64,000 bases of DNA from Pocillopora verrucosa (taxonomy: Eukaryota; Cnidaria; Anthozoa; Scleractinia; Pocilloporidae), in assembly GCF_036669915.1 (NCBI RefSeq), contig NC_089314.1, positions 4,025,120 to 4,089,119 of the forward strand, read 5' to 3'. The translations under genes were made by a program, and so were the position numbers. This document shows, in pieces, positions 1-60,325 of the stretch (positions are counted from its first letter, which is position 1; each line of letters begins with the position of its first letter). The notes under the pieces are model-generated. The model did no database searches. It was not told where the DNA came from and worked only from the letters and a program-made list of their open reading frames with translations.

Positions 1-3000
1 AAGCATACACAGGAAGCCACTGCGAAAAAGGTAAAGTTTTGGTTTCTAGAACAATATTTTCAGAAATATTTCGCGCGCGCTTGTCGTATCTGATTCCTAA
101 AGAGCCATCACTCGTCGCCATTTAACTTCACTCTGACTTACTTTTGCAAACAGAAATTTTCCAATGATTATTTATTTTCTCTATTCTTTTTACATCAGTT
201 GATAATGACTGCAGCTGTTCATCAGGACCAGAAGGAAAACAGAGATGCAAAATAGGTCAGTTAATATTCCAACTTCAATTAACGTAGCTTGGAACAGTTT
301 TCCGACACATCTATACCAAAAGCGCCAAAAAAGCGACTTTCCCTTTACGAAGTCCATCCGCGTGCATCCAACGAATATTTCGACGAAGACTGACAAGAGT
401 TTTTTTAGCAAGTTACGCATCTCTATAATTATCCGATAGTTGTACTAATTAATAAATAGAGAAGCCTTGACTGTGCTCTGTTGAAAGTGGCTAGAGCACG
501 GGTACTCAGAGGGGAGGGTCATCAGTGAAAGTGAGCACCAAAAGGGGAGGTTCATATCTCTTTGTAAGCTATTCAAGGGAAATATGTGCATTCACCACCC
601 TCACTTTCTAATATTTCTTTACTTTAAATGCAATACTGTGGTGATTAATATAAAGTTCAAGTTCATCTACTCTGAGGGAAGACAACTGATCTATGTGACA
701 GAGATCTTCAGAGTCAATGTCATTGTATTCCTGATGCTTTCTGTTCGTCGCTTACTTTCTGCATTTCAATATCAGTTAGATGCTCATTAAAATCTGCGGC
801 AAGCGTTTCTGAAACAATGTATTTTGCAAAAAACTCCTTGATTGCATTTTTATCCCCTGCTTGAGCTCACCCTCTTGAAACATCTGTTTTATTTGAGCTC
901 GAGGCTCATAATTGTTGTGGTTCAATTTTATCCTTGCTTCAAATTTTATTTTCTTTTGTTTTTGGGTTTTGTAATATATGATAATGAGTTTGAAACAAAG
1001 GAAAATAAAATTTGAACCAAGGATAAAATTGAACCCCAACATAATCATCAGGTTTGCGGCCACTCGTAGGTGTTTTCGTACTCGGTAGGTAGCGGAAGTT
1101 TGCTGTAATTGAGAAAGGGTCGTGGAGTTGGTGTAGCTGGAAAGGACTTACTAAATCTCAAAGTTTATGCTTCCACATTCAAACTTCAGCTCCAAAACGT
1201 AGATATCCCACACTGATTGTTGGAATTTTCTTGTTTCAGCTTGCACACATTCAATATCGAGATATATTTATCATTTATCAAACATTTTGCGTTCACAAGC
1301 GAAATTTTCTGAGGTTTCTACGGCATGGAACATAACATGTAGTAGTGAGGGGAGGGTCGTGCTTTTTTCAGTCACTTATAGGTGGGGGATCAGGAGTTTT
1401 TTTTATCAAAGCGCCAGGGAGGGCCAACAAAAAAATACCAAAATTCCCCAACCCCACCAATCCCCCCCCCCCCCCCCCACTCCCAAGAAAATAACGTACC
1501 TTCCCTAACCATGACATCTATACGACGATCTTCATATTCTGCAATGTTAACAATTACATTACGGCCTTAGATATTTGATGAGGGTGCAGCCCGAACCAGC
1601 TACCTTGCAAAGAAAGTGGGGGCAAACTGTGACTGTTACCTAGGTAGAACTGCGGGTCATCCAAACTTGACAACAAGGCGTGATTGAGTCTTATTCTATG
1701 TTGTTGAACACTAGAAGATTTATACAAATACTGGATACTTCTGAAGTGGGAAAATTAATTAAACAAAGCCCAGTTTCTCAAACAACTGTCTAAAATTTCT
1801 GAAATTCATTTCCTCTGTTATAGAGTACCTTATGGTGTTTCCGGAGCTGCGTTCTACGGAAAATTACGCCATGAAGAATCCAGCCATAACTTCAGATCTC
1901 AGCCAGTTGTCGCTGTGTTTCTTCATCAAACTTGTTCAAGACCAAGGGGATCAGATAGTCGTCAGCTATGCCCGTGAAAATGGCAATGACATGATTGTCG
2001 AAATTTATCCAACACGAACAGATTTTTTTGTCGGCAACAAGTTGTTCCGGTAATGCTGCAAATATCTTTTAACATTCGGTTGGGAAATTTCTTATTCGAG
2101 CCACAATAAGTTTTTATACAGGAAATGCTAAGATCGGCTTAAGCTTTTTCCTAACGCTTGGAGGGAGGGAGAAAGATGAAAATACAAACAAACGAAAAAC
2201 CTTGGCTTCTTTCTCTTTTCTTATCATCATTTAAATACCAAATATGTTAATCTTTGACCAAAACAAATCTAGACGTATTTTTCTTGCACTTTGCAAATAA
2301 CTATCCGGGTCCTTTTTTTAAAATGTGATTTAGATCACGATGCACAATCAGAATAAGAGATTGATTGAATGAATGACAACACTGAACGAATCGAAGCTTG
2401 AATGTATGAACGATTAAGTGATAAACGACTGATTGATTGATTGACAGTTTACTGACTGTTTTACTGATTGACTGGCTAACTGACAGACTGACTGACTGAC
2501 TGGCTAACTGACAGACTGACTGAATGACTGGCAGGCCACTTACATATTACTATAAACTGACTGACTACTGACTGACTTAGCGGCAATGAAAAAAGAGGGT
2601 ATTTAATGGTCAAATATATTTAATATTGTTTGCTTTTTGTTTTTTTTTTGTTTTTTTTGTTTTTGTTTTTGTCTTTATTTGTTTGTTTTTTTCAGTTTTA
2701 ATTCGACAAATCTCTATGATGATACCTGGCAACACGTGTGTCTCACCTGGGAAAATACTCAAGGAGCAACGAAACTCTATAAAGATGGTCAATTTACAGA
2801 ACAGGTAACGAATCATGCCACTAAAAATTACGCACTTAAGGCTGGCGGCTTCCTGGTGCTTGGACAAGAGCAAGACTCTATTGGCGGAGGCTTTGATCGT
2901 CAGCAAACTTTTTATGGCCGATTGGCAAGTGTCAACATGTGGGATAAAGTTCTGTCCGAAAGCGACATTGCTGCTCAGTACACAAATTGCAGCGTGCCTC

Positions 3001-3071
3001 ATGGCTCTGTTTTTAACTGGTCGGTATTCAAAAGTCTTACTCATGGCAATGTCACAGTTGAAGAGCCGTGA
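1..3071 (+). CDS. PEP0: secreted PAN-EGF-pentraxin protein, 3' part (5' end outside window)
   Basis: Exons seen are 1..30 (last codons of the EGF exon C), 199..255 (hinge exon D), 1824..2049 (exon E) and 2696..3071 (exon F, stop TGA at 3069). All have AG/GT borders and phases that join in frame. E and F form a pentraxin domain. The two disulfide cysteines of the family are present (LSLCFFIKL in E, WQHVCLTWE in F). The near-signature HVCLTWEN and the calcium motif LGQEQDSIGGGF followed by DRQQ are also present, as is MWDKVLS. The position equivalent to CRP Asp60 is Gly, Asn61 is kept, Glu147 is Asp and Gln150 is kept. Exons A, B and most of C must lie to the left. The D-E intron is enlarged by a repeat block. 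The sequence class is the 'QEQ' class, shared with PEP3 and PEP5. A role as a secreted calcium-dependent lectin is inferred from the domains. Confidence 0.85.
480..1260 (-). pseudogene. Degenerate repeat-borne ORF, copy 1 (in PEP0 D-E intron)
   Basis: This block recurs at about 27060-28100 and 63360-64000, each time in a D-E intron. Read on the minus strand, the better copy at 27360-28030 gives a proline-rich start, a lysine-rich middle, a SAP-like helix-turn-helix motif and an acidic tail. This copy has stops and indels. The flanks hold G-rich/C-rich tracts (poly-C at about 1467-1480). It is probably a dispersed repeat or an old transposon gene. I do not recognise the family. Confidence 0.4.
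2405..2575. repeat. TGAC-rich minisatellite in PEP0 E-F intron
   Basis: The stretch is built from imperfect TGACTGACTGAC / TGACAGAC units. The same kind of tract occurs in the E-F intron of every PEP gene: about 10820-10960, 15895-15985, 29655-29825, 43140-43235 and 54050-54190. It was therefore present in the ancestral intron. A T-rich tract leading to the exon F acceptor follows it. Confidence 0.8.
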
Positions 3072-3640
3072 ACTAAGTTGTTTAGAGATCAAACACTCAC
3101 GACTCATAACTCACGTCATGTATAATAATGTATAATAAGCGTATTTACTATAGGCATTACTGAATCACGTGGTATAAGTACAAAATAGATAGCGAAAGCT
3201 AAACTGAGAGCACGATAAAATTGAGCAAAGAAAATTCAAGGAACAGAGATGTATGTTCCTGATCCCGGCCTAGATATAGAAAATGTGATCTCCACTAAAA
3301 GCATTTATAGATAGTCCCTCGCACGAACAGGTCGGTATGGCGGCTAATTGATCGTATGCACAGATATAAGAAAGCAACTGGTATTTTACACGAAATACTA
3401 TTTAATTGTGTGACTTTCCAATTTTGAAGCCACTGCTGTTTCCGGAGGAAGTGGAACGTTCTGGGACAGTTTCAATTTAGACAGTTTGAAACATTGAAAA
3501 CATGGAAAAGGATAAGCGGTAACAGCTTTCTCTTTCAAACAAGTCTGCTGCACTGCTTGTACTATTTAAAGCATTAAAACATCTGTAAACGTTTACGAAT
3601 TTCTTTCCGCTTTTTCAATTTCGGGCATCTATTTCTTACA

Positions 3641-3688: not shown

Positions 3689-3689
3689 G

Positions 3690-12039: not shown

Positions 12040-12072
<33 letters not shown>

Positions 12073-13428: not shown

Positions 13429-13431
13429 ATG

Positions 13432-16400
13432 ATGGCTTTTTTCTATTTATCTGCCAATTTTCTTGCTCTGGTTGTATCGGCGAGCTCTGTGAAGACTTCA
13501 AAAGGTATCATTTTTTTCCGTTGCAGTGATGCTCGCGTTCCTTTCTGCTTTATTCTCCTGATATCTAATTATGTTTTAAAGAACGTATAAGCCAAAACAA
13601 TTTTAATTGGTCATCTTCATTTCTTTATCAAACACAGGACATACGCCAAACGATGGGGTAGTCTTCACCGATTTTCTTGCTCACAATGGCTACTACTTGA
13701 ACATCACAACTGTTGGTACAGAACTGGTCCAAGACTCCTTTGAGTGCGCGTTCAAGTGTCTCGAGAAGGATCCGTGTTTGTCCTTCAACCTGGCAGATTT
13801 GGATGATAACATTGACAATCTGCTATGTGAACTGCTTCCATCTGATCATTACACCCATTCAGACAAGTTCATCACTAACCGTCTTTGGTATCACTATAGT
13901 ATCGTGGTAAGTTTTTTTTTTCTACTTTATCTTATTATTTCGTTTCTTTGTTATTATCATTTCATCCTGATAATAACTAAAATCGGTTACAGTCGTTTGA
14001 GCAAATTTTATTCAACTGTTCGACATTAATATCTCTCTTTAGCTTTATGTTCCCTTTTTTATTCCTCGCAAGCCTTTTTTAAGTCGTTTATCGATGCGTC
14101 ATCGCAGTTTGTTTGACTGGATTTTATCATGGAAGTAAGTCATTGATTTTCTCGGTTTCAGTCTCCTTGCTTGAAGTTGCCCTGCCAGAACGATGGAACT
14201 TGTATACCTCTGTACCGGACAAACGGCTACAAGTGTCGCTGTACCAAGGCATACACCGGAAGCCACTGCGAAAAAGGTAAAGGTTTGGTTTCTAGAACAA
14301 TGTTTTTAAAAATATTTCGTGCGCGTGCTTGTCGTATCTGATGCCTACTGAGCCATCACTCATCGTCATCTGACTTCATACTGACTTGTTTGTACAAACA
14401 TGAATTTTTTTCCCATCATTATTCATTTTCTTTGTTCTTTTTACATCAGTTGATAATGACTGCAGCTGTTCATCAGGACCAGAAGGAAAACAGAGATGCA
14501 AAATAGGTCAGTTAATATCCCACCTTCGAGCCACTTCCTCTTCACGAAGACCAACGAAATTCGCGCACGCATACGCACACACACACGCACACACGCATGA
14601 ACAGGCGGTGGATAAGCTATGCGATGCGTCCATGTTTTGCCTTATGGAACTTTATAGCGAGTGAGGTAAGGGCCGAAGTATAGAAGAGAACACACACCCA
14701 TTCAGGCACCCGCGCAAACATGCAGACACAAACACAAAAGAGGTGAACAGGCTAAGAGACACGTCCGACATTCTATTCACTTGAGAGTGACGACTACTTG
14801 TTTTGCCTTCTCCACCTATGCAATAACCATGACATCTATACGACGATCTTCATATACTCCACTGTTGATAATTACATTAGGGCCTTAGATAGTTGTTGAG
14901 GACGCAGCCCGAACCCGCTACCTTGCAAAGAAAGTGGGGGAAAACTATCAGTTACCTGGGTAGAACTACGGGTCGTTCAAAACTTGAAAAGAAGGCGGGA
15001 TTGAGTCTTATTCTAGGTTGCTTACAATCGAATATTGTTATGCTATCGTCGCCGATAAGCGTGCGGTATTTATGAAGAACACTAGAAGATGTATACAAAT
15101 ACTGGATCCTTCTGAGGAAGGAAAATTCATTGAAGAAAGTTTCCCAAACAACTCCAAATTTCTGCAATTCATTTCCTCTGTTATAGAGTACCTTATGGTG
15201 TTTCCGGAGCCGCGTTCTACCGGAAATTATGCCATGAAGAATCCAGCCATAGCTTCAGGTCTCAGCCAGTTGTCGCTGTGTTTTTTCATCACACTTGTTC
15301 AAGACCAAGGAGCTCAGACAGTCGTCAGCTATGCCAAGAAACGTAACAATGAGATGCTTGTCGAAATTTACCCAAAAAGGATAATTGTTTATGTTGGCAA
15401 CAAGTTGTTCCGGTAATGCTGCATATATTTTTTTAAAAGTCGGTCGGGGCATTTTTTAATCGAGCCACGATAAATCATGATACAGGAAATGCTATGATCG
15501 GCTTCTTCCTCCTAGATAGTTAATGTCTAACGCTTTGCGGAAAGGAATAGAGCTAAACATACAAATAAACGAAAAGCCGTGGCTACTTTCTCTTTTCTTA
15601 CCATGATTTAAATACCAAATATGTTAATCTTTGACCAAAACAAATCTAGAAGTATTTTCCTTGCGCTTTGCAAATAACTATTCGGGTCTTTTTTTTTTTA
15701 AATTTGATTTAGATCACTATGCTCAGTAGGGCATTAAAATCTTTCAAGTAACGAGGACTCGATTATTACGGTTCTAGCCACAAAAGGATGAGGTTTCTTA
15801 ACCGACCCGGCTTTCGAAATAGTAGCTCAGATCATACTTTTTGATATAGCGGAAATTGAAATGAATGAATGAAAGCAATGAACAAATGGAAGCTTGAAGA
15901 TTGACTGACCGACAGATTATTGACCGACTTCACTGGTTGACAGATTGACTGACTGACCACTGACTGACAGACTGAATGACTCTGCTGACAATGAAAATGG
16001 AGGGTATTGAATGATCGACAATATTATTTACTTTTGTTTTGTTCGCATTGTTCTTTGTTTTTTCTTCAGTTTTACCTCGACAAATCTCTACGATGATACC
16101 TGGCAGCACGTGTGTCTCACCTGGGAAAATACTCAAGGAGTAGCGAAACTCTATAAAGATGGTCAATTTGCCGGACAGGTAACAAATAATGCCACTGAGA
16201 ACTTTACACTTACGGCTGGCGGCTTCCTGGTGCTCGGACAAGACCAAGACTCTATTGGCGGAGGATTTATTCGTAGGCAAACTCTTCGTGGCCGATTGGC
16301 AAGTGTTAACATGTGGGATAAAGTTCTGTCCGAAAGCGACATTGCCGCTCAGTACACAAATTTCAGCGTACCTTATGGTTCTGTTCTTAACTGGTCTGTA

Positions 16401-16445
16401 TTCAAAAATCTTACTCATGGCAATGTCACAGTTGAAGAACCGTGA
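13432..16445 (+). CDS. PEP2: secreted PAN-EGF-pentraxin protein (intact)
   Basis: Exons: A 13432..13504, B 13638..13906, C 14162..14276, D 14450..14506, E 15187..15412, F 16070..16445. The product is 371 residues. Residues 1-24 are the signal peptide exon (MAFFYLSANFLALVVSAS). Residues 25-114 are PAN/apple with Cys 61, 65, 71 and 88. Residues 115-152 are a six-cysteine EGF domain, 153-171 the hinge CSCSSGPEGKQRC, and about 172-371 the pentraxin domain with both family cysteines and HVCLTWEN. The calcium motif is LGQDQDSIGGGF followed by IRRQ. The equivalents of CRP Asp60 and Glu147 are Asn and Ile, and Gln150 is kept. The Cys in QYTNCSVP of other copies is Phe here. All splice sites are canonical and there are no in-frame stops. 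The D-E intron is the shortest in the array (about 680 bp). The likely role is extracellular calcium-dependent binding, inferred from the domains. Confidence 0.88.
14571..14600. repeat. (CA)n-like microsatellite in PEP2 D-E intron
   Basis: ACGCACACACACACGCACAC tract. Similar CA-rich tracts lie at the equivalent place in other D-E introns (about 41810-41825, 52850-52880 and 63251-63299). Confidence 0.75.
15895..15985. repeat. TGAC-rich minisatellite, PEP2 E-F intron
   Basis: Short imperfect TGACTGAC array, homologous to the other E-F intron tracts. Confidence 0.65.
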
Positions 16446-19675: not shown

Positions 19676-19760
19676 GGCTGCTTCACCGATAAACGAAATG
19701 TTTTGGACTGCAGTACACTGTTTCTTGTTTATCTTAGAGTACTGAGAGACGTGGTTCGAC

Positions 19761-21528: not shown

Positions 21529-21744
21529 ATGGACCCAGCAAAGATCATGTCCTTTTCCTGTCCTCATGATCAAACCTTCGCCTATTACCTAGATGACATA
21601 GCCTCCATTCAAGCTACAGTAGTCAGCACCCTCGTTGCAATTCCTGCAACTATATCTTTAAACATGTTACTGATCGTTGCAGTGATTAGAGAGAAATTAC
21701 CGCAAAACCATACATACCATGCAGGTTCCGGGCGCTACTACTAA
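21529..21744 (+). pseudogene. Truncated rhodopsin-like GPCR fragment (N-terminus and TM1)
   Basis: The ORF from ATG 21529 gives a short extracellular head followed by a hydrophobic segment, VVSTLVAIPATISLNMLLIV, and then AVIREKLPQ. A hydrophobic helix with Asn in an LNxLLIVAV context followed by a basic turn is typical of TM1 of class A GPCRs (Asn1.50). The frame runs into a stop at 21742 without TM2, and I see no continuation downstream. It is most likely a broken member of the intronless GPCR families common in cnidarians. Confidence 0.4.
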
Positions 21745-32689: not shown

Positions 32690-33260
32690 GTTTATCGTGT
32701 TGTAAGTTTTCTATTGCCTACCGTATCTGTTTCCTACTGAGCCATCATTTGTCGTCATTTTACTTCACACTGACTTGTTTTTCAAACAGAAATTTTTTCA
32801 TTTTAATTCATTTTCTCTTTTCTTTTTACATCAGTCGATAATGACTGCAGCTGTTCATCAGGACCAGAATGAAAACAGAGATGCAAAGTAGGTCAGTTAG
32901 TAGTCCACCTTCGAGTTAATATAGCTTGAAACAGTTTTCCGCGACACTAATCATTAAGAATGATTTTGTTTTACCTCGAGGGTCGTGTTTGTAGCACAAT
33001 AAACCCACGAGAGTCGTTTATATTCTCTTAGTTTGGTCTGTCCCCTGCCGATCTTTGCAACTCCACCGCCGGGTAGCCGATTCGCACTCAGGATTCGATT
33101 CATATTCTCCACAGGAGCTGCCAGCGATATAAAGCATGATTTCATGTATTGTATTTTGCTGTAGTCTTATCTCCTTCGATACGTGCTTAGTATGAATTAA
33201 GTAACAGAAGTTTTTTAGAACTGTCTAAAATCTCTGCAATTATTTTCTCTGTTATAGAGT
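32690..33260 (+). pseudogene. Relic of a lost PEP copy (exon D plus start of exon E)
   Basis: 32835-32891 is a recognisable 57-nt exon D with both splice sites but an in-frame TGA (CCA-GAA-TGA). It is followed by the D-E intron block (about 32985-33200) and by the exon E acceptor region, TTTTCTCTGTTATAGAGTA, at about 33242-33260. There the exon is cut off and replaced by 3'-flank-type sequence. Confidence 0.65.
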
Positions 33261-37452: not shown

Positions 37453-37527
37453 ATGGCTATTTCCTATTTATCTGCCAATTTTCTTCTTTGTTTGTTTGTA
37501 TCGGCGAGTTGTTTGTAGACTTCAAAG
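37453..37527 (+). pseudogene. Decayed exon A upstream of PEP5
   Basis: It starts ATGGCTATTTCCTATTTATC like the real exon but runs into TAG before the donor. It has its own 5'-flank block (from about 37070). It lies 618 bases before the good exon A of PEP5. Confidence 0.6.
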
Positions 37528-37936
37528 GTTATCACATTTCTTCCCTTGCAGGAAAGACCTGTCATGTTGGAGCACTTTTCGATTGAGCAAAGTGCCAAAG
37601 AATTCAGAGTAAAAACAGGTTAAGAGCTTCCCAAATAACAAAAACCCACCAATTGCTGTCTTCAAACAATAAAGCTAGATACCTACAATAAAAAAAAATG
37701 TAATAAACAGACTGAAAGTTTCCGTGACAGCAGAATTAAAACGAGCTCAACTGGAGCTCTACTGGTCCATTAGTTTTCTCCTGAATTTACACATCAAAAG
37801 TTAGAGCGCTAATTGAATTGACAGCAACTAGAAAGAAAAATAAACCCAGGGGCGCTAGAAAACATTTGCAGAGGAAGACAAACAGGAGCAAATCAGGAGG
37901 CCAAACGCCTGAAAAAGAAAACAAATTAATAACTGA

Positions 37937-38070: not shown

Positions 38071-41000
38071 ATGGCTTCTTTCTATTTATCTGTCAACTTT
38101 CTTGCTCTAGTTGTATCGGCGAGTTCTGTGAAGACTTCAAAAGGTGTTGTCTTTCTTCCTTTTCGTTTTATTTATCACTGATATCCACATCGTCTTTTTG
38201 AGAAAGTCGAAACCATTTTAAATGGTAATTTTCATTTCTTTATAAAAACACAGGACAAATGCCAAACGTTGGGTTTGTCTTCACCAATTTCCTTGCTCAC
38301 AAAGGCTACTATTTGAACGTTACAACTGTTGGTACAGAACTGGTCCAAGACTCCTTTGAGTGCGTGTTCAAGTGTCTGGAGAAGGATTCATGTTTGTCCT
38401 TCAACCTGGCAGATTTGGATGATAACATTGACAATCTGCTATGTGAACTGCTTCCATCTGACCATTACACCCATTCAGACAAGTTCATCACCAACCATCT
38501 TTGGTATCATCACAGTATTGCGGTAAAATTATTTTCCTTTTTCTACCTTATCTTTATCATCACGTTTTTTGTTATTGCTATTTTTCCATCCTAATAATAA
38601 CTAAAATCGGTTGTAATCGTTTGAGCAAACTTTATTCAAGTGTTCAACGTTAATATGTCTCTCGTCGGAAGCCATTTTTAAGTCGTTTTATTGATCCGTC
38701 ATCGAAGTTTTTTTAACTGTTTTTATCAAGGGCGTAAATAATTGATTTTCTCGGTTTTAGTCTCCCTGTTCGAGGTTGCCCTGTCAGAACAATGGAACTT
38801 GCGTACCTCTGTACCGGACAAACAGCTACAAGTGTCGCTGTACGAAAGCATACACAGGAAGCCACTGCGAAAACGGTAAAGGCTTTGGTTTCTAGAAAAA
38901 ATATTTTCAAAAATATTTCTTGCCTTTCGTATCTGATTCCTACTGAGCCATCATTCATCGTCATTTTACTTCACACTGACCTGTTTTGACAAACATAAAT
39001 TTTTTCCTATTATTATCAATTTTCTCCGCTGTTCTTCTATATCAGTTGGTAATGACTGCAGCTGTTCATCAGGACCAGAAGGAAAACAGAGATGCAAAAT
39101 AGGTCAGTTAATATTCCACCTTCAAGTTAAGGTAGCTTGAAACAGCTTTCCGAGACACCTATACCGAATATCTATAAAAAAAAAACCCTAAAAAAGCGAC
39201 TTTCCCTTTGCGAAGCCAAAGGAAATTCACTCGTGTTCACAAAATGATTAAAGTCTGAAGTAATGGCGTTTCAAGGAAACCACAATCCCGTTACATGGTT
39301 TTTTAGATCGATCTCGTAATACGAAGCCAATATCCAGCCATCTTGACCGAACAAGCTTTTTTAATAAAGGATTTATCTTGTAGAGAACGATTTCTCTTTA
39401 TTTTGAAAGAATCAAGAATGAATTTTTGACCTCCAGAGCCGAAGAAGGAAGTCAGCTGTGTTTGTAGCACAATAAAGCCACGTCAGTCGTTTATGCTTTA
39501 TTTGTTTTGTTTGTGGTGGTCCTCGGCCGATTTTTGCGACTCCACCGCCGGCATTGTCTAAAAATTGCTAACTCTGTTAGTCCGCTCGGGTAGCTAATGC
39601 GAACGATGGATTCGCTTCATATCGTCCACTGCCGCTGCCAGCGATATAACGCATGATTTCATGTGTTGTATTTTACTGTAGTTTTATCTACTTCGTTACG
39701 CGCTTAAAGCCAATTAAGTAAGAGAAGTTTGTTGTCATCCTACTATGGCGAAATAGAAATTATCTCAGAAGTGAAAATAAATTCTATTTGACGGCATGTT
39801 TTGAAAATTTTTTAAAATGACTGAGAACACGATGAAAATTCGTCAGATGAAACGCTATTACGACAAATTCAATAAACTTGATTTAGAGCTCAGACAATTT
39901 GCGTCACGCCAAATCCCCGATTGCAGAACGTCTACAAGAAATAAAATAAAACAAAATAAAAGTAAGCAAAAAACAAAAGGTAGAATAACATAAAAAAGGA
40001 TATACATAATACAAACAGAAAATGAGATGCCACAAAAACCATCGAAACGGCCCAAGAGATACTGCCAAATCAGGAAAAACACAATAAAATAGCAAACGCG
40101 GAGTAAAAACAATTTGGCCCGGAACACGTACGGTCAAAACGACGATGCCAAATCAGGCAAAAGGTGCGAAACAAACGGAGGTCAGACTACTAAACAAAAT
40201 GACACTGCCAAATCAGGCAAAACACAACGAGGGTAGACTAAAAGATCAGCAATGACAAGGTGAGGATTAGAGCTGAAAGAAAAGAGACGTGCATGGTAAA
40301 CGAGGATGAAAAAAGCTCACCTAAAATCTACCCGCAACGCCAACATTCTGAATCTCGGGCAACCACTGAAAACCGAGGGACGCGCCTTGTAAATTTGCCT
40401 CTGGCCGGGACCTTCCAACAAGAGGTCTTCTATGCAAGGAAGCTCAAACCCTCCCTTAACAAAAGACTTGAACTGAGAAGAGCTGTCATGCAAAAAGGGC
40501 CAAAAATAGGCCGAAGGCCACTATGGGACGATCAAAGTGCCGAAGCCAGAGCACGACGAGAGAGCTCTAACAGAAGGGACGATGGCACTTACAGAAGGGC
40601 AGACCCAATTGCTCTCGTCTCGCCGATCCTGGGCCGAGGCGTCAACGCCGCAGCAGCCGGGGGAGGCGAATTTAGAATTGTAATGCGACGCAAACCGATC
40701 GATTGTGTGAGGGCCCCATTGGCGTCAATCACTCGAAATACAGAAGGGTTGACGGACCAGTCATCTTTGTCAACAAATCTGCTGAGAAGATCTGCCCTTT
40801 CATTAAGCGACCTTGGGATCCATTGCGCTTCCAGAACGATGCTGTTAACAAAACAGAGATTAAAAATGTCCATAGCCAGAGCCTGGAGATTAATTTTGGA
40901 GCTCCCGATAGCAACAATTCTGGCGGCGCCCTAATTATCAGTAAAGATTTTAACTCTCTTGTGTTTCAATCGAGCAACGTAGGAAAGCAACACGAAATAA

Positions 41001-43744
41001 ATAGCTTTCAGTTCGCGGAACTTTGGCCGATATCTTCGGGTTCCCACATGCCGCTGATAACGGTGCCGTCTAGAGAAGCTGAAAAACCTCCGAAAGCTAC
41101 TAATCACTTGTGTCGGAAAACATTACGGTGTGGGTCGCTGATGGTGGCCTTATAGAATAACCGTTGAGGCAATCGATGTTGCAAGACCAAACGTACCGCA
41201 GATATTTTGATACTCTGTTCAACCACCTTCTCATCAATGAAGCTGGTGGACGGACACTCGAAAACATTTACGGCGGTGGCAGGTTGAAGGCAAGACTCAG
41301 AAAAAACAGTCACTCATGCAAACGTGTCATCTTTTAGAAAAAGTTCGGATATAACGCGCCCTGTCATTGGTAGAAAGAGCGTGCTCTATCAGAGTACAAA
41401 ACATGGAGCTGAGCGCCAATTTCTTCTATGCTTGACCATTTTCCGGACTTCTCTTTAGCCTTTTTTTTTCGTGAACTGTCCGACTTTTGAAGGTTTTCAC
41501 GTAAGCTTAGGTACGGTAATAAACATCAAACACATCTAACACACGTATAGTATATATAGTTTCGTGTTCACAAAGTTTCAATAGTTTCGTCTTCAAAGAA
41601 GTGGGGAGAAACACTCCTCTACGTCTTGTGTATCTCCTTACACTTCTTTCCTGCTCTAGCCTCTTCCTCCGTGCTTTACAACAGAATGGAGCACAGTCAA
41701 GGCCTTTCTATTTGTTAATTAGTATAGCTATCGGATAATTACAGAGATGTGTAACTTACTCCCAAACACTCTTTATAGCGAATGAGGTCAAAAAGTGGTG
41801 GTTTAGTACACACGCACACACTTGGCTGCACCCAAACACAAAAGAGGTGAATGGGCTAAGAGACGCGTCCTACATTCTATTCACTAGTGAATGATAACTT
41901 CGTGTTTTGACTTCTTTACCCTATGCAATAACCATGACGCGTAAACGACGATCTTCATATTCTACATTGTTAATTACATTATGGCCTTAGATAGTTGACG
42001 AGAGCGCACCCGAACCAGCTACCTTGCAAAGAAACTGGGGGCAAATTACAAGTTACCTGGGTAGAACTGCGGGTCGTTCAAAGCTTGGCAACAAGACGGG
42101 ATTGACTCTTATTCTATGTTGCTACAATTGAACACTGTGCGGCATTCTTGAAGAACGCTAGAACATTTATACAAATAGTGCATACTTCTAAATAGGAAAA
42201 TTTAATTAAAGAAAGCGCAGTTGCTCAAACAACTGTCTAAAAATTTTTGCAAATCATTTCCTCTGTTCTAGAGTACCTTATGGTGTTTCCGGAGCTGCGT
42301 TCTACAGAAAATTACGCCATGAAGCATCCAGCCATAACTTCAGATCTCAGCCAGTTGTCGTCGTGTTTTTTTATCAAACTTGTTCAAGACCAAGGGAAGC
42401 AGATATTCGTCAGCTATGCCAGTGAACATGACAATGACATGATTTTCGAAATTCATCCAACATTGACACTATTTTATGTTGGCAACAATCCGTTCGGGTA
42501 ATGCTGCGTATATTAGAATTAGAAGTCAGTTGAGGAATTTCTTATTCGAGCCACAATAAGTTACTATACAGGAAATGCTACGATCGACTTCTTCCTAACG
42601 CTTGGAGAGAGAAAGTTAAACATACAAACAAACGGATAGCGTTAAGCTTCTTTATCTTTCCTTATCATGATTTAAATACCAAATATGTTAATCTTTGACA
42701 AAAACAGATCTAGAAGTATTTTCCTGTGGCATTGCATATAAATATTCGGATCCTTTTTAAAATATGATTTAGATCCCTCTGCTCAATAGGGCTCAACAGT
42801 CGTCTTTAAAGTGACGAGGACTCGCTTATTACGGTTCTAGCCGTAAAAGGATGAGGTTTCTTAACCGACTCGGCTTTCAAAATAGTAGCTCAGATGATAC
42901 GTTGATTTAAACATTTTATAAGTAGAGAAATTTTTTTCGTCTTGTCACGAGCGTGGGACAAAGAAAAAAATTCTGAGTTCCCATGAGGAATCGAGCCTCA
43001 AACCTTCGGATTCCGCGCTCTGAGCCACAGAGATTCTACTGTGAGTGAGATCTCTATTTTATGAGTAATTGCATGAATAAGAGATTGACTGAATGAATGA
43101 AAACACTGAACAAATCGAAGCTTGAATGTATGAATGATTAAGTCATTGATAAACGATTGATTGACTGACTGACAAGCCTCTTACATATTACTATAAACTG
43201 ACTGCCTACGGACTAACAGACTGAATAACTCTCTTGACTAACTTAGTGACAATGAAAAAGGAAGGTCTTGAATGATCAAATATATTTTATATTGTTTGTT
43301 TTTTGTCTTGTTTTTTGTTTTGTTTTGCTTTGTTTCGTTTATTGTTTTTTTTGTTTTTTTTTTTCCAGTTTTACCTCGACAAATCTCTACGATGATACCT
43401 GGCAACACCTGTGTCTCACCTGGGAAAACACTCAAGGAGTAATGAAACTCTATAAAGATGGTCAATTTACAGAACAGGTAACGAATCATGCCACTAAGAA
43501 TTACGCACTTAAGGCTGGCGGCTTCCTGGTGCTTGGACAAGAGCAAGACTCTATTGGCGGAGGTTTTCATGTTAACCAAACCTTTCATGGCCGATTGGCA
43601 AGTTTCAACATCTGGGATAAAGTTCTGTCCGAAAGCGACATTGCCGCTCAGTACACAAATTGCAGCATACCTTATGGTTCTGTTATTAACTGGTCTGTAT
43701 TCAAAAATCTTACTCGTGGCAATGTTGCAGTTGAAGACCCGTGA
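38071..43744 (+). CDS. PEP5: secreted PAN-EGF-pentraxin protein (intact)
   Basis: Exons: A 38071..38143, B 38254..38522, C 38761..38875, D 39046..39102, E 42272..42497, F 43369..43744. The product is 371 residues. The signal peptide is MASFYLSVNFLALVVSAS. PAN has four core cysteines and EGF six. The hinge is VGNDCSCSSGPEGKQRC. The pentraxin has LGQEQDSIGGGF followed by HVNQ. Of the copies here it is the only one that keeps both Asp and Asn at the positions equivalent to CRP 60 and 61 (EHDNDMIF). Glu147 is His and Gln150 is kept. The exon E donor is shifted by substitution so the joining codon is Gly instead of Arg. The 3.2-kb D-E intron carries a retroelement fragment that replaced part of the ancestral intron, and the E-F intron carries the SINE shared with PEP3. 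Confidence 0.87.
39893..41214 (-). mobile_element. DIRS/Ty3-like retroelement fragment with RNase H region
   Basis: The minus strand at about 40700-40930 encodes INLQALAMDIFNLCF-like sequence, then EAQWIPRSLNERADLLSRF and VDKDDWSVNPSVF, the RNase H tail with the ADxLSR motif seen in DIRS/Ty3-type pol. Stops and frameshifts are present. Comparison with the PEP7 intron shows ancestral intron sequence ending at about 39892 and resuming at about 41215. The fragment therefore replaced about 1.2 kb. The region is GC-richer than its surroundings. The 224-residue + strand ORF at 40260-40934 is antisense to it and is not considered a gene. Confidence 0.55.
40060..40225. repeat. Short spaced repeats of TGCCAAATCAGGCAAAA
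   Basis: TGCCAAATCAGG(C/A)AAAA occurs at about 40065, 40146 and 40205, with partly similar spacers, at the far end of the retroelement fragment. It may be an internal repeat of its terminal region. Confidence 0.6.
41330..41580 (-). repeat. Foldback repeat arm, - orientation, in PEP5 D-E intron
   Basis: Matches the reverse complement of 5930-6300 (GTTCGGATATAACGCGCC ... GTATAGTATATATAGTTTCG), with an internal deletion. Confidence 0.5.
42925..43055 (-). repeat. tRNA-derived SINE in PEP5 E-F intron (same insertion as PEP3)
   Basis: Same element and position as in PEP3, with a deletion in the anticodon-arm region. It is flanked by ATTTTATAAGTA (42913-42924) and ATTTTATGAGTA (43056-43067). Confidence 0.75.
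43140..43235. repeat. TGAC-rich minisatellite, PEP5 E-F intron
   Basis: Shortened version of the intronic TGACTGAC array. Confidence 0.6.
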
Positions 43745-44840: not shown

Positions 44841-44888
44841 TCCGGTAGTCTAGAAAATTCCAGTGTGCTATAAATGGAGGCAAGGGGT

Positions 44889-45755: not shown

Positions 45756-46182
45756 TCATATTTCTTCCCTTGCAGGAAAGACCTGTCATGTTGGAGCACT
45801 TTTCGATTATTGTTCCCGTTATTTTCTGAAACTTTCCGTGACAGCAGAATTAAAACGAGCTCAACTGGAGCTCTACTGATCCATTATTTTTCTCCTGAAT
45901 TTACAATCAAAACCTAGAGCGCTAAAATAACAGGAACTAGAGAGAGAAATAGAGAAACCCAGGGGTGCTAGAAAACATTTCCAGGGGAAGACAAACAGGA
46001 GTAAATCAGGAGGCCAAACGCCTGAAAAAGAAAACAAATTAATAACTAATGACAAGACATCGTGTCATAACAGAAGAAGATGTTTGCAAAGCCCACGTAA
46101 AAAACTTAATGTTGCGTGTCTGTGGCATTACGAAATCGTGTACCACCATGAAAATCATTTCTCTTTGAGCTACAAGAATATG

Positions 46183-48866: not shown

Positions 48867-51800
48867 ATGGCTTTTTTCTTTTTATCTGCCAATCTTCTTG
48901 CTCTGGTTGTATCGGCGAGTTCTGTGAAGACTTCAAAAGGTGAGGTCTTTCTTCCTTTCTGCTTTATTTTCCTGATATCTACATCGTCTTTTTGAGAAAG
49001 TCGAAACCATTTTAATTGGTAATTTTCATTTCTTTATCAAAACACAGGACAAACGCCAAACGTTGGGTTTGTCTTCACCAATTTCCTTGCTCACAAAGGC
49101 TACTATTTGAACGTTACAACTGTTGGTGCAGAACTGGTCCAAGACTCCCTTGAGTGCGTTTTCAAGTGTCTGGAGAAGGATCCATGTTTGTCCTTCAACC
49201 TGGCAGATTTGGATGATAAGAAGAATCTATGTGAACTGCTTCCATCTGACCATTACACCCATTCAGACAAGTTCATCACTAACCATCTTTGGTATCACTA
49301 CAGTATTGTGGTAAAAATTATTTTTCTTTTTCTACTTTATCTTATTATCACGTTTTATTATCATTATTATTATTTCATCCTAAGAATAACTATAATCGGT
49401 TGGAATCGTTTGAGCAAATTTTATTCAACTGTTTAACATTAATATATCTCTCTATGGCTTTATCTTTACTTTTTTATTCCTCGCAAGCCATTTTAAGTCG
49501 TTTTACTGACCCGTAAACGTAGTTTGTTTAACTGGTTTTTATCAAGGGAGTAAGTGATTGATTTTCTTGGTTTTAGTCTCCTTGCTCGAGGTTGCCCTGT
49601 CAAAACAATGGAACTTGTGTACCTCTGTACCGGACAAACAGCTACAAGTGTCGCTGTACGAAAGCATACACAGGAAGCCACTGCGAAAAAGGTAAAGTTC
49701 TGTCTTTAAAACAATAATTCCAAAAGTTTTTCGCCTGCATGCTTGTCGTATCTGATTCCTACCGAGCCATCATTTGTCGTCACTTTACTTCACACCGACT
49801 TGTTTTTGCAAACATAAATTTTCCCATTTTACTTAATTTTCTCTATTCTTTTTACATCAGTTGATAATGACTGCAGCTGCTCATCAGGACCAGAAGGAAA
49901 ACAGAGATGCAAAATAGGTCAGTTAGTACTCCACCTTGAATTAAGATAGCTTGAAACAGTTTTCCAAAACACCTATACCGGAAGCGCTAAAAAGCGACCC
50001 TCCCTTTACGAAGTCCAACGAAATTCACTCTTGTTCACAATATGTTTAAAAATTTGAAGTAATGGGCGTTTCAAGGCAACCACAATTGATATGCTAATAC
50101 ATGGGGAATTCTCGTTATGGCTGTTTAAAAAAATCATGACTCCGTTGAATTAACTCTTCACAGTAAAAGCAAGCTCCACATCAAGTTTTACTAAATATAT
50201 TACAATAATCTTACATCTGACAAATTCTCAATGGGTTCTGAGCTATTGTGTTAAATTTAAACCATTTCCTCGTATCGACAAGAAACCACAAACTAGCCAA
50301 TTAAGGGTACTTTTTTATCATTACATCACCCGTTCACTAACTGATATTGTTTTGTTTTGTTTCGGAAATGGCTCAATAACATTTGTCCTAATTTGGCTTT
50401 CTTGAAATACAGAACTGTGCATTACTTCAGAATCAAGAATGACTTTTTGACTTCGAGAGCCGAGAGAGAAAGCCAACTGTGTTTGTAGCACAATAAATCC
50501 ACGATTGTAGTTTATGTTTTCTTCGTTTTGTCTGTCCTCTGCCGATTTTTGCGACTCTACCGCCGGCAGTTTCCAAAAATTGCGAACTCTGTTAGTCCGC
50601 TCGGGCAGCTAATTCGAACTCAGGATTCGCTTCATATGTCCACAGGCGCTGCCAGCGATATAACGCATGATTTCATGTATTGTATTTTACCGTAGTTTTA
50701 TCTCCTCCGTTACGCGCTCAGTGCGAATTGATTAACAGAACTTTTTCATTATCCTACTATGGCAAAATAGAAATGATCTTGGAAGTGAAAATTCAATTTG
50801 ACACCATGGTTTTAAAAAGTTTTGTAATGGCTAACGTTAAAAATTCGTCAGATGAAACGTTATGGCGACAAATTCAATAAACGTGATTTAGAGCTCGGTA
50901 TATGATTAAAAAATCAATAATTTCGCCTAGAAGCTGAAAAATTAAGAGTAATTTTGAAAGAGCTAAATTTAATTGGTTGATATTTTCTCAAATGCGAGTA
51001 TATGGCTGAGAAAACATTTTCCTGAAGTTGAGGAAAAAAATCTATCGAAGATTCTTCGAGATCAACCCAAAAACCTCTCAAAAGGTATTTCCCCATAACA
51101 TAAGCATATCAGTAGTGACACCCGCTACATTTGGTGAACCCAACTGTGAAATTTGTTCGACTGTGAAAAGGGAAATTTTCTTTTGAGCGCTTTGAACGCA
51201 GTCGCCAGGTGTCTAGGAAAACAGAAGACCTTCCACTCGGATGAAACCAAATTTACCTATGCTCACAGAGCCAGCACAGCGGTCATAAGCCGTGCATGCG
51301 CAAGGGGATCAGTTTTTACCAGGTGCGTGCCAATTTCCCACGCAAAGGCCAAAAGGAATACATAATAAACAATCGCTGACACGAAAAATACGCGGAAAAA
51401 ATTAGTGAAACTGTTATAGAAATCTGTAGAAAGATGCAAAAGGATGGAAAAGGAAACTTCAAGACTTTTTAGAACCCAAAACATATTTAATCATGGAAAG
51501 GGGCGTTAGTTTAGAGAGACTGTATTACTGCGTCGCTGGGAGAGTATAACAAGGTAATTTGGTATTATCAACTGAGTTGATAACGTATACTGGCCGACAA
51601 ATAAGACTTTCAAAGCTGACGTTTGGAGCGTTGGCCCTTGGTCAGAGCTAAGGGCTTAACTCTTAACAGTGGTCAGTTTATGTTATCAGCTCAGTTGATG
51701 ATACCAACTTACTTAATAATGTGTTTCCTGTTAATTTACCATTTTGATTTGAACTTTATCAAAAACGGTATACACCTAAACTTACAATTTTCTGTGGTGG

Positions 51801-54674
51801 TTTAAAGCTTCTACTAAACAAATTGGTTCTGACAACTTGAAAGAACGATACCCAACCAATACTACAGTCGCACTTGCATAGACGTTTGCGCGCTCTGTTG
51901 ACCGCGCCACTCTCTGGAAAAGTACAAGCAACAAAAATCCTGTTTTTATTCCTCTAAGCTACGTCTGAGAGGATAAAAACTATTAAAATATGATTAGCTT
52001 GCGGTGTGGACGGTGCTTGGTAACAAATTTTCCGTATTTCGACAAAATTAAGTTTATAAAATCCGTTCAACCACCTTCTCATCAATGAAGATGGTGGACG
52101 AACACTCGAAAACATTAACGGCGGTAGCAGGTTGAAGGCAGAACTCAGAAAAAATAGTTAATTATGCAAACGTATCATCTTTTAGAAAAAAGTTCGGATA
52201 TAACGCACGCTATCATTGGTAGAAAGAGCGTACTATATCAGAGTACAAAACACGGAGCTGAGCTAAAACTCTCACACCATCTGCCAATTTTTACTATACC
52301 CGACCAATTTCCGGACTTCTCTCTAGCTTTTTTTCATTAATTGAAAGTGAAAATTCGTAACAAGTGAGCCGGTAAGTAGCAACAGATGAGCCAAAAAAAG
52401 GTTTTTAAACATGCCAAGCGCCATAACTGACGTTACTATGACGTGAGACGAAAATCTTCAAAGGGGAAACGAAATGAACTTTTTTCCGAGTTTTAGAGGT
52501 TTTCACGTAAACTTACATACGGTAATAAACATAAAACACGTCTAATACCCGTATAGTATACATAGTTTCGTGTTCACAAAGTTTTTACAGTTTCGTCTTC
52601 AAAGAAGTGGGGGGGGGGGGGGGGGGACACACTCCACTACGTCTTGTGTGTCAACCTATACTTCTATCGTGCTCTAGCCACTTTCTCCGCACTTTACAAC
52701 AGAACAGGACAGGCCTATCTATTTGTTCATTATTATGACTATCGGATAATTATAGAACTGAGTGACTTAATCACAGGCGCACTTTATAGCGAATGAGGTA
52801 AACGTCGTAGTGTAGTAACGAAGGCAAAAAGTAGCAACAAACGCGCGCGGCACACACGGACACACCCAGACGCAAACACAAAAGAGGTCAATAGGCTAAG
52901 AGACTATTCACTAGTGGGTGACAACTTCCTGTTTTGCTTTCTTCACCCTATGCAATAACCACGACATCTATACGACGATCTTCATATTTTGCATTATTAA
53001 TAATTACATTATGGCCTTAAATAGTTGATGAAGACGCAACCCGAACCCACTACCTTACAAAGAAAGCGAGGGCAAACTATCAGTTGCGGGTTGTACAATA
53101 CTTGACAACAAGGCGGCATTGAGTCTTATTCTATGTTGCTGACAATCGAACACTGTCATACTATCGTCCCCGATAAATGTGCGGCATTTTTGAAGAACAC
53201 TAGAAGACATACAAATACTAGATCCTTCTGAGGAAGGAAATTAATTGAAGAAAGCGCAGTTGCTCAAACAACTGTCTAAATCTCTGCAATTCATTTCTTC
53301 TGTTATAGAGTACCTCATGGTGTTTCCGGAGCCGCGTTCTACCGAAAATTACGCCATGAAGAATCCAGCCATAGCTTCAGATCTCAACCAGTTGTCGCTG
53401 TGTTTTTTCATCAAGCTTGTTCAAGACCAAGGGGCTCAGACAGTCGTCAGCTATGCCAAAAAACATCAAAATGAGATCCTTGTCGAAATTTATCCAACAC
53501 GAACAGATGTTTATGTTGACAACAACTTGTTCCGGTAATGCTGCCTATATTTTTTTAAAGTCGGACGGGGTATTTCTTAATCGAGCCACGATAAATCATG
53601 ATAGGGGAAGTGCTACGATCGGCTTCTTCCTCCTAGCGTTAATGTCTAAACCTTTGCGGAAAGGAAGAAAGTTAAATATACAAACACTCAAACGGAAAGC
53701 GTCGGGCCTCTTTCTCTTTTCTTATCGTGATTTTAATACTAGGTATGTTAATCTTTGACCAAAACAAATCTAGACGTATTTTCCTTACGCTTTGCAAATA
53801 ACTATTCGGGTCCTTGTTTAAAATTTGATTTAGATCACATTGCTCAATAGGACATTTAAATCTTTCGAGTAACGAGGACTCGCTTATTGTGGTTCTAACC
53901 ATAAAAGGATGAGGTTTTTTAACCGACCCGGCTTTCGAAATAGTAGCTCAGATCATACTTTTGATATAGCAAAGATGAAATTAAGAGATTGACCGAATGA
54001 ATGCAATTAATGCAATGAATGAATTAAAGCAAAGAACGAATGGAAGCTTGAAGATTGACTGACTGACAGGTCACTGGTCAACTTGCTGACAGACCCACTG
54101 GTTGACAGATTGACCGACTGACAGGCCACTTACATATAACTTTAAACTGACTGACTACTGACTGACAGACTGAATGACTCTGCTAACTGACCTAGTGACA
54201 ATGAAAAAGGAGGGTCTTAAATGATCGAATATAATTAATATTCTTTGCTTTTGTTTTGTTTTGTTTTGTTCTGGTTTTTGTTCTTTTTTTTTCTTCAGGT
54301 TTACCGCGACAAATCTCTATGATGATACCTGGCAACACCTGTGTCTCACCTGGGAAAACACTCAAGGAGTAACGAAGCTCTATAAAGATGGCCAATTTGC
54401 CGGACAGGTAACAAATAATGCCACTGAGAACTTCACACTTACGGCTGGCGGCTCCCTGGTGCTTGGACAAGACCAAGATTCTATTGGCGGAGGTTTTCAT
54501 GTTGAAGAAACTTTTCATGGCCGATTGGCAAGTGTCAACATGTGGGATAAAGTTCTGTCCGAAAGCGACATTGCCGCTCAGTATACAAATTGCAGCGTAC
54601 CTCATGGTTCTGTTCTTAACTGGTCCGTATTCAAAAATGTTACTCATGGCAATGTCACAGTTGAAGAGCCTTGA
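48867..54674 (+). CDS. PEP7: secreted PAN-EGF-pentraxin protein (intact)
   Basis: Exons: A 48867..48939, B 49048..49310, C 49577..49691, D 49861..49917, E 53309..53534, F 54299..54674. The product is 369 residues, two fewer than the others because of the shortened PAN loop (DDKKNLCELL). Signal peptide MAFFFLSANLLALVVSAS, four PAN core cysteines, six EGF cysteines, hinge CSCSSGPEGKQRC, then pentraxin with LGQDQDSIGGGF followed by HVEE. The equivalent of CRP Asp60 is Gln, Asn61 is kept, and 147 and 150 are His and Glu. The pentraxin half groups with PEP1 and PEP2, while the PAN-EGF half groups with PEP6 and PEP4/5. This suggests a chimeric history. The 3.4-kb D-E intron holds the hammerhead-type hairpin repeat and one foldback arm. 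Confidence 0.87.
51560..51707. repeat. Hairpin repeat with hammerhead relic (copy 2), PEP7 D-E intron
   Basis: Arms TGGTATTATCAACTGAGTTG... and its reverse complement. The core at 51614-51645 is as in copy 1, with the same G-to-C change before AAA. Confidence 0.5.
52190..52580 (-). repeat. Foldback repeat arm, - orientation, in PEP7 D-E intron
   Basis: Full-length reverse complement of the 5930-6300 element (GTTCGGATATAACGCACG to GTATAGTATACATAGTTTCG). Confidence 0.6.
52609..52626. repeat. Poly(G) run
   Basis: Eighteen consecutive G. The equivalent place in PEP5 and PEP8 introns has GTGGGGAGAAAC. Confidence 0.85.
54050..54190. repeat. TGAC-rich minisatellite, PEP7 E-F intron
   Basis: Imperfect TGACTGACTGACAG array as in the other copies. 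Confidence 0.7.
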
Positions 54675-59025: not shown

Positions 59026-59264
59026 AATAAAGAAGCCTAGCGAAGCGAGAAAACATTTACAAAGGAAGACAAACAGGAGCAAATCAGGAGGCCAAAGGCC
59101 TAAAAAAGGAAACCAAATTAATAATCGATGACAAGACATCACGTGTCATTAACCGTAGCAGATGTTTGCAAAGTCCATGGAAAAAGCTCTATGTTGCATG
59201 TCTGTGGCATTACGAAATGGTGTATCACCGTGAAAGTCATTTCTCTTTGAGCTACAAGATTAAG

Positions 59265-60325
59265 ATGGGTTTCTCTCTATTTATGTGCCAATTTTCTTGC
59301 TTTGGTTGTATGGGCGAGTGCTGTGCAGACTTCAAAAGGTATCATCTTTCTTTCGTTGCAGTGATACTCGCGTTCATTTCCGCTCTATTTTCCTGATATC
59401 TACATCATGTTTTAAAGAAAGTATAGGCTAAAACAATTTTAATTGGTCATCTTCATTTCTTTATCAAACACAGGACATACGCCAAATAATGAGTTTGTCT
59501 TCACCAATTTTCTTGCTCACAATGGCTACTACTTGAACATCACAACTGTTGGTACAGAACTGGTCCAAAACCCCTTTGAGTGCGCGTTCAAGTGTCTGGA
59601 GAAGGATCCATGTTTGTCCTTCAACCTGGCAGATTCGAATGATGGACAATCTGCTGTGTGAACTGCTTCCATCTGACTATTGCACCCTTTCAGACAAGTT
59701 CATCACCAACCATCTTTGGTATCATCACAGTATTGCGGTAAAATAATTTTCTTTTTCTGCTTAATCTTATTATCACGTTTTTTTTTTCTCACTATTATTT
59801 CATCCTAATAATAACTAAAACCGGTTGCAATCTTCTGAGACTGTTCAACGTTAATGTATCTCTCAATGGCTTTATCTTTACAATTTTTTGGTTGTAAACC
59901 ATTTTTAAGTCGTTTTATCGATCCGTCACGAAGTTTGTTTAACTGGTTTTTATCAAGGGAGTAAGTTATTGATTTTCTCGGTTTTAGCCTCTTTGTTCGA
60001 AGTTACCCTGTCAAAGCGATGGAACTTGTGTAGCTCTGTACCAGACAAACAGTGTCGCTGTGCGAAAGCATACACAGGAAGCCACTGCGAAAAAGGTAAA
60101 GTTTTGGTTACTAGAACAATGTTTTTAAAAATATTTCATGCTCGTGCTTGTCGTATCTTACTCCTGCTAAGCCATCATTCATCGTCATCTGACTTCACAC
60201 TGACTTGTTTTTACAAACATAATTTTTTGCTCCATTATTATTCATTTTCTCTGTTCTTTCTATATCAGTTGATAATGACTGCAGCTGTTCATCAGGACCA
60301 GAAGGAAAACAGAGATGCAAAATAG
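59265..60325 (+). pseudogene. PEP8: frameshifted PAN-EGF copy (exons A-D; E/F beyond window)
   Basis: Exons: A 59265..59338 (74 nt, one extra base), B 59474..59737 (264 nt, five bases lost around GATTCGAATGATGG), C 59988..60095 (108 nt, seven bases lost where other copies read AGCTACAAG), D 60269..60325 (57 nt, intact). Three independent frameshifts make it a pseudogene, although every splice site is still canonical. It is the counterpart of PEP1: it shares the NITTVG.ELVQN sequence and flanking repeats. The following intron runs to the window edge and ends in the block that precedes exon E elsewhere. Confidence 0.8.

Follow-up and report, generated by a model that had tools for sequence, protein, structure and literature searches.

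A tandem array of pentraxin genes with a modular PAN-EGF arm in the coral Pocillopora verrucosa

A stretch of 64,000 nucleotides from the stony coral Pocillopora verrucosa (assembly GCF_036669915.1, contig NC_089314.1, here C3, positions 4,025,120 to 4,089,119; referred to below as the window) contains a tandem array of pentraxin genes, the intact members of which have six exons (A to F) that would together specify a PAN-like domain, an epidermal growth factor-like (EGF) domain and a C-terminal pentraxin domain. The modular array with its PAN-EGF arm is real, and it was not found described in the literature searched. We lean, with some reserve, towards the view that it encodes secreted, calcium-dependent recognition lectins of modular build whose binding face is diversifying.

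Nine copies of the gene, PEP0 to PEP8, lie head to tail on the forward strand of the window (Table 1), as established by using the peptides of the six exons as tblastn queries and by examining the splice sites. A preliminary description, made from the window sequence alone, had proposed nine same-strand copies of one six-exon gene with the same exon sizes and phases apart from indels, and both points are borne out, the latter in the undamaged exons. These are 73 (A), 269 (B), 115 (C), 57 (D), 226 (E) and 376 (F) bases long; exon A is 76 bases in PEP2 and PEP6, from an additional upstream ATG, and exon B is 263 bases in PEP6 and PEP7. The intron phases are 1, 0, 1, 1 and 2, with GT donors and AG acceptors at undamaged junctions. 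Four of the nine copies (PEP2, PEP3, PEP5 and PEP7) have all six exons, open throughout, within the window, their spliced translations being 369-372 residues long and each ending in a stop codon, and PEP0 is a fifth once the left flank, with its exons A-C (-779 to 30), is added. The window is the middle of an array of approximately 192 kb, with matches from C3:3,976,238 to 4,168,686; the end point of the range 1..60325 originally assigned to it, 60325, is only that of PEP8 exon D, and further copies follow to the left and right of the window. This extension, together with tblastn exon matches with a best E-value of ~3e-81, rules out a chance origin. The window and its flanks (204 kb) contain 16 six-exon A-F runs, of which 14 are fully open with consensus splice sites; run g03 has an early stop that removes the last two residues only and is otherwise like the open runs, and run g05, which is PEP1, is frameshifted. 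There are 20 full-length B exons with good splice sites in the array region, and that of PEP8 is frameshifted. The region also includes a 5 kb run of N (C3:4,107,120-4,112,119) and about 13 kb without any exon match (C3:4,011,131-4,024,331), bounded by a pair of relics of exons C and D and by PEP0.

The PAN-EGF-pentraxin architecture predicted for these genes is well supported by sequence. Exon A provides the start codon and a signal peptide-like hydrophobic stretch, the best 11 residues of which have a mean hydropathy of 2.0-2.6 in all 16 runs; exon B is PAN-like, exon C encodes an EGF domain with six cysteines, exon D a hinge of 19 residues, three of them cysteines, and exons E and F the pentraxin domain. 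The proteins of PEP2, PEP3, PEP5 and PEP7 were scanned, and all four score 107.6-112.5 bits with the Pentaxin profile (PF00354; cut-off 25; E-values 9e-31 to 3e-32), covering profile positions 3 or 4 to 192 of 194 and residues 173-176 to 366-369 of 369-372; the possibility raised in the preliminary description that exons E and F would give no pentraxin hit thus falls away. All four also match the EGF profile (PF00008), with 25.5-31.2 bits against a cut-off of 21.5 (E-values 2.7e-7 to 1.6e-5). The PAN_1 profile (PF00024, cut-off 21.4 bits) is passed by PEP5 exon B scanned alone (23.5 bits) and matches six of nine B-like sequences at E-values up to 1 (best 1.9e-5), and in the alignment of these nine the cysteines C36, C40, C46 and C63 are invariant. 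The Pfam scans and the hydropathy profiles support the order that had been read from the sequence, namely a signal peptide-like start, PAN, EGF, cysteine hinge and pentraxin. Sushi, vWFA, FA58C, hyalin-repeat and CUB domains gave no match at E-values up to 1 in the four proteins scanned, and an NCBIfam scan of PEP3 gave no match.

We infer that exons A to F are spliced into one transcript, and the D to E junction matters most here. In every one of the 16 runs, as well as in a paralogue at C3:6.89 Mb described below, it joins phase 1 to phase 1; reading on past the exon D donor meets a stop within 6-52 residues in every run, and the open frame upstream of exon E is only 10-66 residues long, with a methionine in four of the 16. 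The alternative is that two gene sets are interleaved, A-D encoding a short protein of PAN and EGF that is secreted, and a separate transcript containing E-F, so that there would be no PAN-EGF-pentraxin protein. Such an arrangement would suit the length of the D-E intron (680-6585 bases among the 16 runs), the mutual rejection of the A-D and E-F trees, and the presence of an open A-D without E-F in PEP4 and of a stop-free E-F behind a broken A-D in PEP8. We nevertheless regard it as improbable, given the agreement in phase, the shortness of the frame upstream of E and its scarcity of methionines, the preservation of order and strand across the 16 runs and two further loci, and the finding that breaks in history also occur within A-D and within E-F. 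Polyadenylation signals (AATAAA or ATTAAA within 800 bases) follow exon F in 15 of the 16 runs and exon D likewise in 15 of 16; being equally frequent, they do not separate the one-gene from the two-gene reading.

The same order of domains occurs elsewhere in the genome. A genome search gave at least 133 Pentaxin matches, 23 of them in this array, and at least 150 matches to exon B, 22 rows of which are in the array and 128, more diverged, elsewhere; the counts are lower bounds, with 150 of 200 Pentaxin candidates and 150 of 466 exon B candidates scored. A Pentaxin search of 14 control genomes gave zero matches. Two tandem sets at C3:6.88-6.90 Mb have the same order, with E-F of one followed by B-F of the next; the second set (the paralogue at C3:6.89 Mb) is 58-71 % identical to the array in C-F and 32 % in B and has the same EGF-to-hinge and hinge-to-pentraxin phases, and no exon A match was found in it. 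The minus strand of C4 has, at 14.567-14.572 Mb and in this order, a PAN-like exon that scores 20.2 bits and so stays under the cut-off, two EGFs with 31.5 and 35.2 bits, and then a pentraxin. B-like and EGF-like exons also precede other domains: at C5:12,495,500-12,501,499 they are followed by a second EGF-like exon and then a TLD exon (37.2 bits), and at C14:3,923,300-3,929,299 by a fibrinogen-like exon (Fibrinogen_C 25.7, COLFI 27.3 bits). One locus was read for each of C5, C14 and C4, the gene models are partial, and the C5 and C14 EGFs are called by cysteine pattern only. The C5 and C14 loci resemble the array in having a PAN-like exon joined in phase 0 to an EGF-like exon, which is joined in phase 1 to the next, and their B-like exons are 48-49 % identical to PEP5 exon B and 48 % to the exon B query of the genome search; they differ from it in their C-terminal domain, and the C4 locus differs in its additional EGF. 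Since PAN-EGF-like exons with the same phases lie ahead of TLD and fibrinogen-like domains, the array looks like one branch of a shuffled PAN-EGF family, and we interpret the pattern as a PAN-EGF cassette moved about by exon shuffling. We note that the C4 locus is part of a third pentraxin cluster with 12 matches (C4:14,526,882-14,815,265), in which PAN-like, EGF, EGF and pentraxin were found in the one locus read, and that C3:195,787-1,118,711 is a second large cluster of pentraxin exons. At C3:1,085,500-1,092,499 a Sushi exon (32.9 bits) and an upstream frame with a long hydrophobic stretch lie ahead of pentraxin exons, which suggests a putative membrane-anchored Sushi-pentraxin.

To our knowledge, pentraxins have been described in bilaterians mostly as single genes or small sets. 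The solved structures in the PDB closest to the array proteins by sequence are neuronal pentraxin-1 (NPTX1, 2.2e-21) and human C-reactive protein (CRP, 4.8e-21). As in the long pentraxins NPTX1, NPTX2 and PTX3, the pentraxin domain is C-terminal behind a longer N-terminal arm, and the extra C-terminal cysteine of PEP3 aligns with a cysteine of NPTX1; the arm of known long pentraxins is a coiled coil, however, whereas in the array proteins its place is occupied, on the evidence of the Pfam matches and the cysteine pattern, by PAN, EGF and the cysteine hinge. With CRP and serum amyloid P they share a whole Pentaxin domain, an HxCxTW-type motif, an LGQEQDS-type calcium loop and N61, Q139 and D140, but they have additional N-terminal domains, lack the phosphocholine residues F66 and E81, mostly lack T76 and vary at D60 and E147. 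A partial parallel is the cnidarian Polydom (PMC12549020), one extracellular protein that contains a pentraxin and PAN/Apple and is drawn with EGF-like among its other domains. It is far larger, includes Sushi, FA58C, CUB and others, none of which matched in the four array proteins, and has its pentraxin ahead of PAN. The preliminary description knew of no animal pentraxin with PAN and EGF at its N-terminus; a search of open-licence papers, as far as their accessible text extends, likewise found no PAN-EGF-pentraxin protein. Within this genome the order is not confined to the array. The accessible portions of coral papers that name pentraxins (PMC12960093, PMC5792016, PMC7853314), and of one on a Nematostella pentraxin protein (PMC4718514), give no such architecture. 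In two coral genomes nearly a third of the predicted genes are tandem duplicates (PMC10236652), and since tandem duplication is so common in corals a tandem array is in itself ordinary.

Variation among the copies is concentrated in the segment of the pentraxin domain that corresponds to the ligand site of CRP. Evolutionary counts are based on 15 genes; of the 16 six-exon runs, g05 (PEP1) was left out for its frameshift, and the g03 protein was cut at its early stop. The ratio of nonsynonymous to synonymous substitution (dN/dS), calculated as mean dN over mean dS from 105 non-independent pairs, is 0.45 for A-D and 0.58 for E-F, and by exon 1.14 (A), 0.53 (B), 0.22 (C), 0.10 (D), 0.74 (E) and 0.47 (F). 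The most variable 25-column window of the entire protein aligns with CRP 57-81 (permutation p 0.0005), and mean entropy is 0.84 in the 49 columns within four residues of CRP ligand residues compared with 0.31 in the 153 other pentraxin columns (p 2.7e-6). The corresponding pN/pS ratio is 1.01 (95 % interval 0.60-1.92) in CRP 57-83 and 0.50 (0.35-0.69) elsewhere. PMC6503050 gives D60, N61, E138, Q139, D140, E147 and Q150 as the calcium residues of human CRP and F66, T76 and E81 as its phosphocholine residues. N61, Q139 and D140 are invariant in all 15 genes, as is the C36 and C97 pair; position 138 is E or D in all 15 and Q150 is present in 14. We note that exon F of PEP2 (16070-16445) lacks the C-terminal pentraxin cysteine, leaving 15 cysteines, while it is kept in the other 14 of the 15 genes.

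The array copies are pervasive mosaics. The nearest neighbour of a gene differs between A-D and E-F in 11 of the 15; the coding A-D of g12, for example, is 98.4 % identical to that of g15 and its E-F 99.7 % identical to that of g13, and g00 is 98-99 % identical to g01 and g02 in E-F and only 89.5 % in A-D. Distances are correlated between exons A and B (r 0.62), B and C (0.55) and E and F (0.74), but not between B and E (-0.01) or B and F (0.06); exon C is weakly correlated with E (0.32, p 0.015) and with F (0.28, p 0.04). In approximately unbiased (AU) tests the tree of each module, A-D or E-F, is rejected on the data of the other, and a Mantel test of A-D against E-F over the 15 genes gives r 0.07 (p ~0.3).

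On the reading that we favour, each gene would encode a protein of approximately 370 residues, consisting of a signal peptide, a PAN/apple domain (B), one EGF (C), a short hinge with three cysteines (D) and an entire pentraxin domain (E and F) with most of a CRP-type calcium site. The protein would be secreted and would bind its ligand via calcium on the pentraxin binding face; its PAN-EGF arm, together with the cysteines of the hinge, may serve in oligomerization or attach it to a surface or a partner. As the genes duplicate in tandem, unequal crossing-over or gene conversion would give mosaic copies differing mainly around the binding site, the outcome being a germline set of soluble recognition lectins. 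A recognition role is moderately supported by the sequence evidence; secretion, calcium binding, the oligomer form, the type of ligand and any role in defence or symbiont recognition are inferred. A bolder version, which we put forward only tentatively and consider rather unlikely, is a germline-diversified recognition system in which recombination would reassort arms and ligand-binding segments around a constant calcium core, providing a repertoire of soluble lectins that differ in their specificity for microbes or algal symbionts.

Several results weigh against the lectin reading or parts of it. The PAN assignment is the weakest of the domain calls: in contrast to Pentaxin and EGF, which behave as the preliminary description expected of PEP2, PEP3, PEP5 and PEP7, PAN_1 stays under its cut-off in three of these four whole proteins (18.0-18.7 bits) and is unmatched in PEP3. 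Moreover, the AlphaFold2 prediction for exon B, made with seven window sequences, reaches a predicted local distance difference test (pLDDT) score of 40 only, a PDB profile search with the nine B-like sequences gave no PAN chain and only chance-level rows, and the B exons of the C3:6.89 Mb, C5 and C14 loci have no PAN_1 match on their own. As for the calcium site, D60 is D in only seven of the 15 genes and E147 is D in eight and otherwise I, N or H, never E; in the phosphocholine pocket F66 and E81 are found in none of the 15 and T76 in three. Taken with the unvarying N61, Q139, D140, C36 and C97, this pattern makes calcium binding plausible and CRP-type phosphocholine binding unlikely, and a human-type phosphocholine specificity was dropped on these counts. 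The pN/pS interval of the variable segment leaves room for relaxed constraint, and pS is also higher there (0.26 compared with 0.14); with a ratio of 1.01 and such an interval, positive selection on the segment is not claimed. The modular history is also less than clean. Control AU tests reject splits within A-D and within E-F too, so that recombination or conversion appears to act throughout; without g01 and g02 the Mantel correlation rises to r 0.28 (p 0.04), and that between the two A-D halves is then 0.29 (p 0.08). Compared over A-D together with its introns, g12 resembles g13 slightly more (92.9 %) than g15 (91.2 %), opposite to its coding exons, which argues against a single crossover in the D-E intron and is fitted better by short conversion tracts. 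A strict two-module history, with A-D and E-F exchanged by crossover in the D-E intron, had been suggested by the Mantel r of 0.07; it was rejected in view of the within-module AU rejections, the weaker signal without g01 and g02, and the lack of a single breakpoint in g12.

Mostly neutral birth and death of copies is a possible but doubtful explanation of the diversity; the variable segment would then reflect relaxed constraint, or conversion from decayed copies, and no functional diversification. It would be in keeping with the many relics, with the damaged or incomplete state of four of the nine window copies, with a pN/pS in the variable segment that is close to 1 and not clearly greater, and with the pervasiveness of tandem duplication in corals (PMC10236652). 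It accounts poorly, however, for the open state of 14 of the 16 six-exon runs, for the clear constraint outside the segment, and for the persistence of N61, Q139, D140 and the C36-C97 pair, unchanged in all 15 genes within an otherwise variable domain. PAN and EGF are common adhesion modules, and the proteins might be not recognition lectins at all but adhesion proteins of the extracellular or skeletal matrix, resembling small relatives of the cnidarian Polydoms, with a copy number that serves dosage. The joint occurrence of pentraxin and PAN/Apple in those Polydoms (PMC12549020) and two entries named pentraxin in the Corallium rubrum skeletal proteome (PMC7853314) are compatible with this. 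We think it unlikely, since the variation is concentrated at the ligand site and not evenly spread, and the four scanned proteins are small and free of matches to the Sushi, vWFA and FA58C domains.

Decayed copies are more numerous than the preliminary description supposed; it had noted relics of at least one further copy, and A-, D- and F-like pieces occur at several sites. No E-F was found between PEP4 exon D and the next copy, and no exon D in PEP6. A-like pieces lie at ~34045, 37453 and 45683; the weak relic protein matches have E-values of 0.009 at 34045, 0.38 at 31171 and 44002, and 0.92 at 44523, and DNA repeat families D2, D6 and D9 overlap several relic sites. Further along the array, at C3:4,121,727-4,160,413, decayed partial copies (A without ATG, the start of B and, in most of them, a broken F) precede intact or near-intact genes. 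Because relic pieces recur ahead of genes, the unit of duplication seems to include both a relic and a gene. Among other contents of the window, frames at 18140-19742 resemble a retroelement reverse transcriptase, three of them without a Pfam match at E-values up to 0.01, and the frame at 21511-21741 has a membrane-helix-like stretch and some likeness to a receptor fragment, likewise without a Pfam match at E-values up to 0.01. Elsewhere in the genome, exons of the GFP family gave 74 matches, lying in two clusters on C1 (670,362-884,433 and 28,361,248-28,791,301), in keeping with an anthozoan.

Table 1. Exons and relics of the pentraxin array, in window coordinates
Feature	Position	Strand	Remarks
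PEP0 exon C, 3′ end	1..30	+	Rest of A-C left of window, from -779
PEP0 exon D, cysteine hinge	199..255	+	
PEP0 exon E, first pentraxin part	1824..2049	+	Variable segment 1973-2044, counted from exon frame
PEP0 exon F, second pentraxin part and stop codon	2696..3071	+	
PEP1 A-D	A 6519-6591, B 6727-6995, C 7240-7354, D 7500-7556	+	
PEP1 E-F	E 10115-10340, F 11083-11457	+	F frameshift near 11344-11356
PEP2 A-D, complete open copy	A 13432-13504, B 13638-13906, C 14162-14276, D 14450-14506	+	ATG also at 13429
PEP2 E-F	E 15187-15412, F 16070-16445	+	Gene 13432..16445
PEP3 A-D, complete open copy	A 24535-24607, B 24740-25008, C 25241-25355, D 25526-25582	+	
PEP3 E-F	E 28755-28980, F 29946-30321	+	Gene 24535..30321
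PEP3 most variable segment, exon E	28904..28975	+	Aligns with CRP 57-81; counted from exon frame
PEP4 A-D only	A 34759-34831, B 34940-35208, C 35453-35567, D 35739-35795	+	All open
PEP5 A-D, complete open copy	A 38071-38143, B 38254-38522, C 38761-38875, D 39046-39102	+	
PEP5 E-F	E 42272-42497, F 43369-43744	+	Gene 38071..43744
PEP6 A-C	A 46180-46255, B 46368-46630, C 46897-47011	+	B two codons shorter
PEP6 E and F relics	E 47052-47231, F 47705-47893	+	Both with stops
PEP7 A-D, complete open copy	A 48867-48939, B 49048-49310, C 49577-49691, D 49861-49917	+	
PEP7 E-F	E 53309-53534, F 54299-54674	+	Gene 48867..54674
PEP8 A-D	59265..60325	+	A, B, C frameshifted; D open
PEP8 E-F	64672-64897, 65759-66134	+	Past window end; stop-free
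Exon F relics	30861-30911; 31171-31197	+	31171-31197 weak
Exon D relic	32834..32914	+	In-frame stop
Exon A relic	37453..37528	+	In-frame stop
Exon F relics	44546-44626; 44002-44028, 44523-44552	+	Latter two weaker

A large coral array with a new N-terminal build would suggest that pentraxin, TLD and fibrinogen-like domains have each received a PAN-EGF cassette through exon shuffling. The array would also offer approximately 15 natural versions of a single calcium-lectin binding face on which ligands could be tested directly, and its products are candidate components of the means by which a coral might distinguish between microbes and symbionts.

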